Assembly: GCF_001544615.1 (NCBI RefSeq)
Contig: NZ_FCNV02000002.1
Coordinates: 248,001 to 312,000 of the forward strand
Origin: Caballeronia concitans
GTDB taxonomy: Bacteria; Pseudomonadota; Gammaproteobacteria; Burkholderiales; Burkholderiaceae
DNA: 64,000 nt
Direction of reading: 5' to 3'
In this document: in pieces, positions 22,005 through 28,037 of the stretch
Position numbering within the stretch: the stretch's first letter is position 1
Layout: each line of letters begins with the position of its first letter
Made by a program: the position numbers and the translations under genes
The notes under the pieces: model-generated
The model's input: only the letters and a program-made list of their open reading frames with translations
Told to the model about the DNA's origin: nothing
The model's database searches: none

Positions 22005-25000
22005 CTATCGATGCAGCCAGGCGTGCAACACGGCGAGCAAGTCGTCGAGGTTCACGGGTTTGGACAGGTAATCCCACGCTCCCGCCTCGATGCACTTCTC
22101 GCGATCGCCCTTCATTGCCTTGGCCGTCACGGCGATGATGGGCAGCGCTCGGCCCACCGGCCGCTTGCGAATTTCGCGGATGGTGGTGAGGCCGTCCATT
22201 TCAGGCATCATCACGTCCATCAGAACGATGTCAATTTCCGGATCTGCCTCGACCTGGTTGACGGCGTCGCGTCCGTTATCGGCCCAGGAATGCCGCATGC
22301 CCAGGTCTTCCATCACCGTGGCAAGGGCGAATATGTTGCGCATGTCGTCGTCGACGATCAGTGCCTTCTTGCCGTGGAGCTTGCCTTGCGGAATCCGCAG
22401 TGCGCTCAGAACGGCGTTGGCTTCCGGAGGGAGCGCATTCGCGTCGACGTGAAGCGCCGCGATGCAGAGGTCGAACAGCATTTCAGGGCTCGCTGCGGGA
22501 TGAGCGACGAACGTTTCGCATTGCTGCTGCCATCGCGGGTTTTCGGTGATGTCGTCCGCGCGAAGAATGACCGGTAACGGCGCGAGGACACGCGACCCCG
22601 ACAATGCCTGCTCAATGTCTTCCGGCTCGACGGCGACGGTGCCATCGGCCAGCACCAGGACGTCGAAGCAACTCGACGATAAATGCCGGAGCAGAGTCTC
22701 TCGCGAATCGGCGATCGTGAATGCTGCTTGCGACCCGTCGAGGCCATGCACGAGCAAGTCACGCTCGGCCCCTTCCGGCAGAGTCGCAAGCACCGTGCGC
22801 TGCCTCGGACCGACATATTGCGCCAAAGCCGAAAGCGCGAGGTCGAGCGTCTCCTTCGATTCGATGGGCTTAGGGATGAATGCGAACGCGCCCGAGCGCA
22901 GCGCGCGCTCGCGAAACTCGTCCGAGGAAACCACGCATACGGGAATATGCCGGGTAGCCATGTCTTGCTTGAGCCGGCTGAGGATCCGCCACCCCTCCAT
23001 GTCGGCCAGGAACACGTCGAGCGTCATGAAATCGGGTTTGTATCGCGCGGCGAGAGTCAACGCATCGGCCCCGAAAGCCGTGACAACGGCCTTCATCCCG
23101 CCTTCTCGCGCGGCGTCCGCCACGACCCGCGCGAACGCGGCATCGTTCTCGACAATGAGCACGACCCGGTCGCCTTGCACGATATGGTCGCGGTCATCGG
23201 GGAACGGCGCGACGAGCGTCGCATCCGTGACCTCGTCCCGCCGGTACGACCGCGCCCGCGATAGTTCCTGTGCCTCGGTGACACGCGCCGCACCGTTCGC
23301 GGCTGCCGACGACGCGCCGTCGAAGAACGGAAGCGACCTGCGCCCCGAACGCGCGTTGTCGTTCTTGCTCGGCAGATACAGCGTGAACGTGCTTCCCTTG
23401 TTGGGCGTGCTCGTCAGACGAATTTCACCGCCGAGCAGCTTGGACAGTTCGCGGCTGATCGCAAGCCCGAGCCCAGTGCCGCCGTACTTGCGGCTCGTGC
23501 TGCCGTCCGCCTGCTGGAACGCTTCGAACACGATCTGCTGCTTGTCGGGCGAAATACCGATGCCGGTGTCCTGCACGGAGAACGCGAGCACCGGGCCGCC
23601 GTGACCGAGCGTTTCGCTGTCGTCGCCCCATCCGGCGAACGCTTCGTCGATGGTCAGCGTCACATGCCCCCTGTGCGTGAATTTGAACGCATTGGACAGC
23701 AGGTTCTTGAGGATCTGCTGGAGGCGCTTCAAATCGGTGACGATCGAAGACGGCACGTCGGCGCCGAGCTGGATGAAGAAGTCGACGTTACGTGCCTCGG
23801 CGACGTGTCGGAAAGTCCGCTCGACATAGAGCGTCAGGTCGGCAAGACGATGCTCCGCCAGGTCCACGACCACCGTTCCGGATTCGATCTTCGCGAGATC
23901 GAGAATGTCGTTGATCAGCATGAGCAGATCGTTGCCGGAAGAATGAATCGTCTTCGCGAACTCGACTTGCCTTGGCGAAAGATTGCCTTCCGGGTTCTTG
24001 CATAGCTGGTCCGAGAGAATCAACAAGCTGTTGAGCGGCGTGCGCAGTTCGTGCGACATGTTCGCCAGGAACTCAGACTTGTACTTGGACGTCAGCGCCA
24101 GTTGCTTTGCCTTGTCTTCGAGTGCTTGCCGAGCCTGCTCGACTTCGGAACTCTTTCGCTCGACTTCCTGGTTCTGGTGAGCGAGCAGACGAGCCTTCTC
24201 CTGCAATTCCTGATTGGTCTGCTGCAACTCTTCCTGCCGGCTCTGCAGTTCGTGAGCAAGCGATTGCGATTGCTTGAGGAGATCCTCGGTTCGCATGTTC
24301 GCTTCGATCGTATTGATCACGATGCCGATACTTTCGGTCAGTTGATCGAGGAACGCCTGATGAGTCGGATTGAAGCGCTCGACCGACGCCAGTTCGATCA
24401 CGCCCTTGACGTGTCCCTCGAAGACGACCGGCAGTACGAGGACGTTTTGCGGCAGTACGGTGAGAAGTCCCGAGACGATGCGATAGTCGCTCGACGACGA
24501 CGGCGCAAGCAGGATCTTGCGCTTCTCGACAGCACATTGCCCGACCAGGCCTTCTCCCAGCGCCACGCGTTTTCCGTGCGAGCGATAGCCGTCCGATGCG
24601 TAGCTTCCGACGAGCTTGAGCGAGGTGCCCTGCGGACTTGCATCGAGCACGAAGAACTCGGCTTGTTGAACACCGACGACCGGCGCCAGCTCGGACAGAA
24701 TGAGATGGCCGACAGCGACGAGATCCTTCTGCCCCTGGAGCATGCGGCTGAACTTCGCCAGGTTCGTCTTGAGCCAGTCCTGCTCGGTGTTGAGGGCCGT
24801 GGTGTCCTTCAGGTTGCGGATCATCTCGTTGATCGTATCTTTCAACGCCGCGACCTCGCCCAACGCCTCGACCGTGATCGAACGAGTCAAGTCGCCCTGC
24901 GTCACGGCAGTCGCAACCTCGGCGATCGCCCGCACCTGCGTCGTCAGGTTGGCCGCCAATTGATTGACGTTTTCGGTGAGACCCTTCCAGGTGCCCGCTG

Positions 25001-28000: not shown

Positions 28001-28037
28001 CGTTCAGCGCGTCTTTGCCAGTCACCACGGCGTCCAT
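22005..28037 (-). CDS. Giant soluble poly-HAMP hybrid histidine kinase
   Basis: A 2010-residue protein with no membrane segment. Residues about 1-150 look like two degenerate HAMP-like units, with AVAAVRRGE near 22 and AVLKGQG near 120. Ten HAMP units in exact 92-residue register follow to about 1090, with core [20 protein letters not shown] and linker [11 protein letters not shown]. Then come a GAF domain (about 1100-1250), a Gln/Glu-rich coiled coil (1255-1320), HisKA with [12 protein letters not shown] (His about 1328), HATPase (about 1415-1562), a receiver (about 1620-1725), a degenerate receiver (about 1745-1850) and a canonical receiver ([17 protein letters not shown]; about 1885-2009). 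The layout recalls fungal group III kinases (NIK-1/Os-1). GAGGAACATTCA precedes the ATG. Confidence 0.93.
24822..27581 (-). repeat. Ten 276-bp tandem repeats encoding HAMP units
   Basis: The same landmark, the CAT complementing the Met codon of [10 protein letters not shown] (in-phase equivalent in the outer units), recurs at 24822, 25098, 25374, 25650, 25926, 26202, 26478, 26754, 27030 and 27306, always exactly 276 bases apart. The seven or eight inner units encode almost identical protein; the outer ones diverge. Between inner units most base differences are at third codon positions. Confidence 0.9.

Follow-up and report, generated by a model that had tools for sequence, protein, structure and literature searches.

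Introduction

Long poly-HAMP kinases have already been described in Myxococcus and Sorangium (PMC7643160) and in Azospirillum (PMC4618731). In M. xanthus the AskC gene lies immediately downstream of that for AskB, the AskA, AskB and AskC proteins bind each other, a two-hybrid interaction links Rec3 of AskA with the receiver of AskC, ask mutants show a changed response to glycerol, and Myxococcus responses to 100-500 mM glycerol are developmental (PMC7643160). Ambruticin is bound weakly by AskC, and purified AskA and AskB did not bind it (PMC7643160). The poly-HAMP stretch of MXAN_6735 (AskB) expands and contracts between orthologues within the genus (PMC4603909). Fungal group III (Nik1) kinases also carry 92-residue HAMP repeats and no membrane segment (PMC7643160, PMC3848655), act through the HOG pathway (PMC11253588), and are proposed to use HAMP-HAMP interactions as an osmotic switch (PMC3418262). 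The present study analyzes a gene at 22005..28037, on the minus strand, of a 64,000-nucleotide stretch of Caballeronia concitans contig NZ_FCNV02000002.1 (hereafter the window), in which an earlier note made from the sequence had pointed to an unusual HAMP array.

Like Myxococcus AskA/AskB with AskC and Sorangium Amb07, the window protein is soluble and has a long poly-HAMP array, a kinase core and receivers. Four features of the AskA/AskB/Amb07 group were found, namely an N-terminal 92-residue array, no transmembrane segment, homologous core and receivers, and an adjoining receiver-kinase. As with AskB, a further hybrid kinase gene follows directly, and with this receiver-kinase gene, which starts 8 bases past the stop codon, the AskB-AskC layout is reproduced. 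The AskB-like protein of the Myxococcus genome searched has 14 units, compared with nine in the window, and the AskA-like locus of Myxococcus has CheR and CheB ahead of its receiver gene, whereas the window lacks them directly downstream. The Azospirillum orphan hybrid kinases AZOLI_p30171 and AZL_c01470 are described as having nine tandem repeated HAMP-GAF, like the window (PMC4618731); a plasmid of A. lipoferum 4B matched at 64.7% over 97%, at what may be the same gene. The Aer2 chemoreceptors of Pseudomonas and Vibrio resemble the window protein in having concatenated HAMPs in a soluble receptor, and the units are hit by the Aer2 model of NCBIfam at scores well under the cut-off set for a whole protein, but Aer2 is a haem-PAS chemoreceptor with few HAMPs and is not a kinase (PMC3570549).

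With fungal group III kinases, taken from their description, the window protein shares 92-residue HAMP-pair repeats and the absence of a membrane segment; the former are fungal and feed the HOG pathway while the latter is bacterial. The group III layout has no GAF domain and one receiver, which is not the layout found in the window protein, with a GAF domain and three receivers, although several receivers have been attributed to group III (PMC7643160). CaNik1p has five repeats, compared with nine units, a GAF domain and three receivers in the window.

Results and Discussion

The window protein is probably a poly-HAMP hybrid histidine kinase of the cytoplasm that belongs with AskA and AskB and is encoded together with a receiver-kinase resembling AskC, and at the level of sequence its domain order, catalytic motifs, two intact receivers and one degenerate, conserved neighbour and strictly conserved array are all evident. 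Input modules normally evolve faster than the kinase under their control, and in this family the order is reversed across phyla, with the array changing more slowly than the kinase core. Judging by titles, abstract openings and excerpts in the open-access literature, we recognised no paper that reports stronger conservation in the array than in the kinase; the HAMP survey of Dunin-Horkawicz and Lupas (2010) came within this scope only as a reference.

The array consists of nine 92-residue units in exact register at residues 253-1080 (24798..27281; this and all features of the gene given below are on the minus strand), delimited by repeat finding, Pfam, self-comparison and relatives. Tandem Repeats Finder reported a 276-base period with 7.8 copies at 25177-27317. 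Comparison of residues 1-1100 with themselves at an offset of 92 gave 683 identities in 1008, the sole offset from 60 to 139 with more than 150 matches, and the periodicity is far beyond chance. Units 1-7 have 83-91 of 92 residues in common pairwise, the corresponding figures against these seven are 68-73 for unit 8 and 53-57 for unit 9, and units 8-9 form the conserved C-terminal transition of the array. The earlier note had counted ten units in exact register, of which nine stand; the tenth, residues 161-252 (27282..27557), is a degenerate first unit 5 residues off register, with only 9-13 of 92 residues in common with the register units and a GDLS motif 97, not 92, residues ahead of the next unit's motif. 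It matches HAMP_2 at 28.7 bits (cut-off 24.3) and HAMP at 19.7 bits, under the cut-off of that profile. Two more degenerate units had been suggested at about residues 20 and 120. The latter, at about 110-160 in residues 69-160 (27558..27833), is a family-wide feature, present throughout an alignment of the window with 37 relatives and inside the crystallised constructs 9trj/9trk. The former, at about 15-60 in the N-terminal extension (residues 1-68; 27834..28037), is by our reading of the alignment present with that extension in 7 of the 37, for which a script had set the start at the first Met lying no more than 320 residues from the first unit. Residues 1-160 had no Pfam match up to E = 1.

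The relatives compared initially came from a two-unit query against bacterial and archaeal species genomes, in which the best 80 of at least 586 confirmed stretches represented 79 distinct loci (labelled by L-numbers, with the window as L009). These loci had 88-98% identity to the query and, as named from record titles, many of them those of metagenome bins, came from Pseudomonadota, Cyanobacteriota, Myxococcota, Acidobacteriota, Verrucomicrobiota, Planctomycetota and others. Because this first set had been picked by array similarity, the comparison was redone with the GAF domain and kinase core as query. Among 398 Pseudomonadota genomes 26 matched, including the window's own, and 23 of the other 25 had arrays while two (L166, L170) did not. 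The array was more similar to the window than HisKA-HATPase was in 23 of 23, with mean identities of 83.1% and 65.2%; these relatives represent six families, with nine from one and six from another, and two of them (L165 and L167) are loci already present in the first set. In cyanobacteria, the phylum of the Nostoc locus L063, 17 of 194 genomes matched at 18 places, one of them L063 itself, and the array again exceeded HisKA-HATPase in all 14 places scored (means 84.7% and 64.1%), two of which have only two units; two more places had no array and L195 was left unscored. Overall the order held in 37 of 37 scored relatives chosen by their kinase, with the reservation that local alignment may slide by whole units, which slightly helps the array figures. 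The cap (44-67% identity) and the GAF domain (43-90%) are also below the array in conservation. One relative, L077, carries an array of 86% identity on a kinase just 36% identical to the usual core, and L062 falls on the same long branch of the kinase tree; from these sequences it is as if an array had moved onto another output.

EF-Tu was used as an outside yardstick, and of 18 genomes, themselves chosen by array similarity, 13 gave an EF-Tu match at 1e-80. Across phyla or classes the array identity was above that of EF-Tu in all 11 comparisons (EF-Tu and array, respectively: Verrucomicrobiales 69 and 92%, Polyangium 70 and 88%, Opitutaceae 71 and 88%, two Nostoc 73 and 86% and 72 and 86%, Fischerella 75 and 87%, Planctomycetota 73%, from a partial sequence, and 81%, Myxococcus 78 and 89%, Azospirillum 79 and 89%, Bradyrhizobium 81 and 83%, Sulfotelmatobacter 73 and 84%). 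Among the nearest genomes, C. arationis had 97% (partial) for EF-Tu and 99% for the array. Variovorax WS11 ran against the trend with 92% and 81%, in an alignment that may be gapped, with six units against nine. Horizontal transfer of this patchy family is likely, which weakens the comparison with EF-Tu and leaves the comparison within the gene unaffected.

The anatomy of the unit was examined in 598 distinct interior units, each with at least 60 of 92 matches to the reference, a filter that raises the measured conservation, and with last units (such as unit 9) excluded. In this set 52 of the 92 positions have one residue at 95% or more, and only 11 fall below 70% (21, 23, 35, 38, 41, 45, 52, 59, 71, 79 and 89). 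Of the latter, positions 35, 38, 41, 45, 52 and 59 are spaced by 3, 4 or 7 and so form a single stripe on a presumed helix. Fifteen polar or charged positions, counting Thr, are conserved at 98% or more. Positions 2-11 each reach at least 98%, and since these are ten consecutive residues all faces of a helix are conserved. In a coiled coil some three positions in every seven are usually free to vary, so that in these units more than packing seems to be constrained, as far as residue frequencies can tell. We infer that the surface of the array is under constraint, and its conservation beyond that of the protein's own catalytic part hints that the rod has a further partner or job.

An alternative explanation for the likeness of units could be recent duplication or gene conversion, in which case near-identity would say nothing about function, but the silent sites make this very improbable. 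Among units 1-7 the proportion of differing silent sites (pS) was 0.43-0.71 (mean 0.566), with only 0.01-0.06 (mean 0.040) for replacement sites (pN). Near-full-length orthologues of 82-84% identity occur in 6 of 36 other genomes of the genus searched, all six with nine units, and corresponding units in them gave pS of 0.39-0.69 and pN of 0.00-0.02, so that silent differences between units equal those between orthologous units. Corresponding units are nevertheless 88-92 of 92 identical in protein, and units 6-9 match their own counterparts in the orthologues best, with units 4 and 5 interchangeable. Across 14 loci four-fold sites of the array differed from the window by 0.48-0.75, the highest values being for two cyanobacteria, and units anchored at the C-terminal end had protein identities of 82.6-99.4%. 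With silent sites heavily diverged and protein nearly identical, the array is by these measures old and held by purifying selection. This is not quite the whole account, as the four-fold difference among units 1-7 was 0.497 compared with a mean of 0.596 under random recoding, and none of 200 simulations fell below the observed value. The longest stretch identical between two units was 47 bases, whereas the maximum averaged 30.9 over 30 simulations, so that a degree of gene conversion or of common codon preference is present. By the same two departures, fewer silent differences and longer exact matches than random recoding gives, selection to recode the units against recombination is not supported.

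The putative partner is a 719 amino acid protein with a receiver, HisKA, HATPase and a second receiver (19837..21996, minus strand), its ATG lying 8 bases past the stop codon of the array kinase. A receiver coding stretch on the same strand lies directly downstream in 34 of 64 array-chosen loci, i.e. the first-set loci with enough sequence (33 of 64 when counted at the protein level), and in 20 of 21 kinase-chosen loci, a count that excludes L166 and L170, which lack arrays, as well as L165 and L167, which duplicate L088 and L105. CheR is directly downstream instead in 15 of 64 array-chosen and 1 of 21 kinase-chosen loci, and in 6 of the 15 (L047, L053, L069, L082, L089, L099) a receiver follows within 3 kb, in some of them after CheB. 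This pattern would fit a possible ancestral order of array kinase, CheR, CheB and receiver-kinase, from which the line of the window would have lost CheR and CheB. The CheR and CheB genes observed downstream of some poly-HAMP kinases (L069, L082, L053, L099) also hint at methylation-based adaptation of a soluble kinase. In Myxococcus qinghaiensis a kinase-core search at 1e-80 gave only two loci, to whose members the window core is 62 and 67% identical: in the first a kinase of 14 units precedes a receiver-kinase, the receiver of which has 53% identity to that of the window partner, and the second has a 9-unit kinase followed by CheR, CheB and a receiver gene. We equate these, by layout and length only, with AskB-AskC and AskA.

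Several observations weigh against this assignment or parts of it. Neither a receiver nor CheR is downstream in 15 of the 64 loci, and few families are represented by the 21 kinase-chosen loci (one family gave nine, another six). The window partner is just 35% identical to the Myxococcus partner in its kinase part, and a search of the Myxococcus genome with the whole partner gave five other kinase places (E up to 1e-40) and not the AskC-like one. For the array itself, Pfam finds one HAMP per unit, and the idea that a unit is a HAMP pair draws on a related construct, profile matches and the CaNik1p paper. CaNik1p is reported to have nine HAMPs in five repeats, as four 92-residue pairs and one single or truncated (PMC3848655), and because its authors count the 92-residue repeat as a pair, the nine register units of the window should by analogy hold eighteen HAMPs. 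Structure 9trk matches residues 111-388 (5.6e-114) and 9trj residues 111-296 (7e-64); 9trk is 93% identical over 274 amino acids to the 9-unit Myxococcus protein, and by sequence match both solved structures belong to a Myxococcus-like relative. No paper on 9trj/9trk was found in the open-access literature, where the one text match to 9trk was, by its title, an unrelated virus paper. A profile of the cap and unit 1 reached the Aer2 structure 3vol at 4.5e-6.

The protein would be a dimer in which the nine units, each a HAMP pair, stack end to end into one rod, and this rod would settle into one of two packing states under a cytoplasmic input acting along the array or at its tip. The packing state could then pass through the GAF domain and coil to HisKA, where His1329 would be phosphorylated, with the phosphoryl group moving to Asp1674 or Asp1941 and from there to the first receiver of the downstream kinase. 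If a unit is a HAMP pair, gain or loss of units as whole pairs would preserve, at any array length, the sign of a signal that flips at each HAMP. The earlier note took the array to be the likely sensor, which is possible, and the conservation of the array does favour a specific role for it; weighing on this is the report that in Myxococcus it was the downstream AskC, not AskA or AskB, that bound ambruticin (PMC7643160).

What the array might sense may be framed in two further ways. It could be a repeated binding surface, with one partner or ligand site per unit, the rod summing occupancy and the kinase reading the sum, which would extend the packing-state mechanism rather than exclude it; we consider this possible though doubtful. 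Such a surface would account for the array exceeding the kinase core in all scored Pseudomonadota and cyanobacteria, for the many near-invariant and few variable unit positions, including fixed polar or charged residues and a run from 2 to 11 conserved on every helix face, and for the little-changed array of L077 on a much diverged kinase. Against this, the entry filter raises the unit conservation, and cooperative two-state packing of a long rod might alone constrain most positions. High conservation is also not unique to the array, as the linker before HisKA is nearly as conserved in several relatives (first set: linker and array 86 and 88% in L057, 81 and 81% in L076, with linkers at 45-55% elsewhere), and the purified Myxococcus proteins AskA and AskB did not bind ambruticin (PMC7643160). 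Osmosensing in the manner of Nik1 could instead operate, with water activity or crowding shifting the packing of HAMPs and no specific ligand involved. The same 92-residue repeats without a membrane segment in group III kinases, the HAMP-HAMP osmotic switch proposed for these (PMC3418262) and the altered glycerol response of M. xanthus ask mutants (PMC7643160) are consistent with it. However, the fungal enzymes use the HOG pathway (PMC11253588), the Myxococcus responses at 100-500 mM glycerol are developmental (PMC7643160), and sensing of crowding has no obvious need for a nearly invariant surface, so that we regard osmosensing as rather unlikely here. A more far-reaching reading may be stated, which we offer as speculation that is probably too strong: that the array, rather than relaying passively, is a modular, length-adjustable receptor rod with the same universal partner or ligand bound once per unit, among the most strictly conserved bacterial cytoplasmic surfaces, and passed between kinases and phyla largely unchanged. 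If the array does have a fixed partner, its discovery would account for many orphan kinases of bacteria as a broad class and would bear on the fungal Nik1 kinases through which agricultural fungicides act.

That the number of units is remarkable and a mark of fungal kinases, as the earlier note had thought, is not supported. Bacterial relatives with 4-14 units are common, so nine is an ordinary length, and the existing descriptions of long poly-HAMP kinases from Myxococcus, Sorangium and Azospirillum (PMC7643160, PMC4618731) likewise tell against 92-residue HAMP arrays as a hallmark of group III; the window gene is a member of a known, widespread kind. In 57 first-set genes not cut by the locus end the array had 4-13 units with a median of 9 (11 units in 13 genes, 6 in 13, 9 in 12, 12 in 10, 13 in three, 8 in three, 5 in two and 4 in one), some short arrays possibly being assembly breaks, as L064 has unread letters and L105 begins within its array; the Myxococcus paralogue has 14. 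In 111 proteins, some of them redundant, the distance from one motif to the next was exactly 92 in 840 of 847 cases, and the remaining seven were 184 (three times), 83, 86, 90 and 149 (once each), with none of 46 or 138, so array length by sequence appears to change in whole-unit steps. This natural series of 4-14 units is a ready-made set for the study of signal travel through tandem HAMPs. On plasmids, 218 records matched the whole protein at 1e-100, a match that the kinase core alone could give, and in 127 records a single place spanned 80% of the protein or more. Of the 218, 90 are predicted to be conjugative and 151 come from five rhizobial genera. Rhizobial megaplasmids often match the array kinase, and among the 15 matches listed a record has as many as three places; of these 15, 6 are annotated as HAMP domain-containing protein and 9 are without annotation.

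The other properties that the earlier note had read from the gene were largely borne out. The 2010-residue frame is real, being one open frame with its translation and a stop codon at 22005-22007. The protein is soluble: the hydropathy profile has no free membrane helix, since the top ten 19-mers by hydrophobicity are all inside the GAF domain, and an in-frame stop ten codons before the ATG excludes a membrane anchor upstream in the frame. Pfam on the whole protein found HAMP in 10 stretches, HAMP_2 in 10, GAF_2, HisKA, HATPase and two receivers, many further Pfam names being low scores added up over the repeats. The predicted core therefore stands, with a GAF domain at residues 1104-1241 (24315..24728; GAF_2 8.2e-14), a Glu/Gln-rich linker at 1246-1318 (24084..24302), presumed from sequence and conservation to be a coiled coil, HisKA at 1320-1387 (23877..24080; 9.7e-18) with His1329 by motif position as presumed phospho-acceptor, and HATPase at 1435-1558 (23364..23735; 6.6e-29) with N and G box motifs in place. 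Receiver 1 (22809..23162) and the intact receiver 3 (22008..22370) were found by Pfam and alignment, with Asp1674 and Asp1941 by position as presumed acceptors. Receiver 2 (22398..22802) was unseen by Pfam and recognized by alignment, and has Ala1797 at the acceptor Asp site and no acidic pair. An alignment of 17 C-terminal regions showed the acidic pair and acceptor Asp kept in the middle receiver of L047, L060, L109, L112, L115 and L117, and given this intact receiver in relatives we count three receivers in the window protein, one of them degenerate, as had been proposed.

The SpoIIID and HTH-type labels published, with a DNA pull-down, for AskA and AskB (PMC7643160) were also considered. 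SpoIIID passes its cut-off only on the whole window protein (37.4 bits), with no single stretch passing, and the profile gives 16.5 bits on two units (cut-off 27) and is absent on one; HTH_6 reaches 20 bits on the whole protein, under its 28.3-bit cut-off. The stretches concerned are residues 741-768 and 515-542. We regard these labels as a repeat artefact in the window protein, and the scores put the DNA-binding labels of AskA and AskB in question, while leaving the reported pull-down untouched.

Upstream of the array gene, at 28450-32658 on the minus strand, lie genes for a Nudix hydrolase, a TIM barrel protein resembling xylose isomerase and a periplasmic protein that binds sugar; among them is a frame that, judged by eye, encodes an ABC-type ATPase. 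A functional link to these genes was discarded, as a search at 1e-10 of the other loci compared, whose flank lengths vary, gave no counterpart of the Nudix or TIM-barrel protein in the neighbourhood of the array gene. Opposite the repeats an antisense open frame of 674 codons runs at 24051-26075 on the plus strand, probably as a by-product of GC-rich codon usage.

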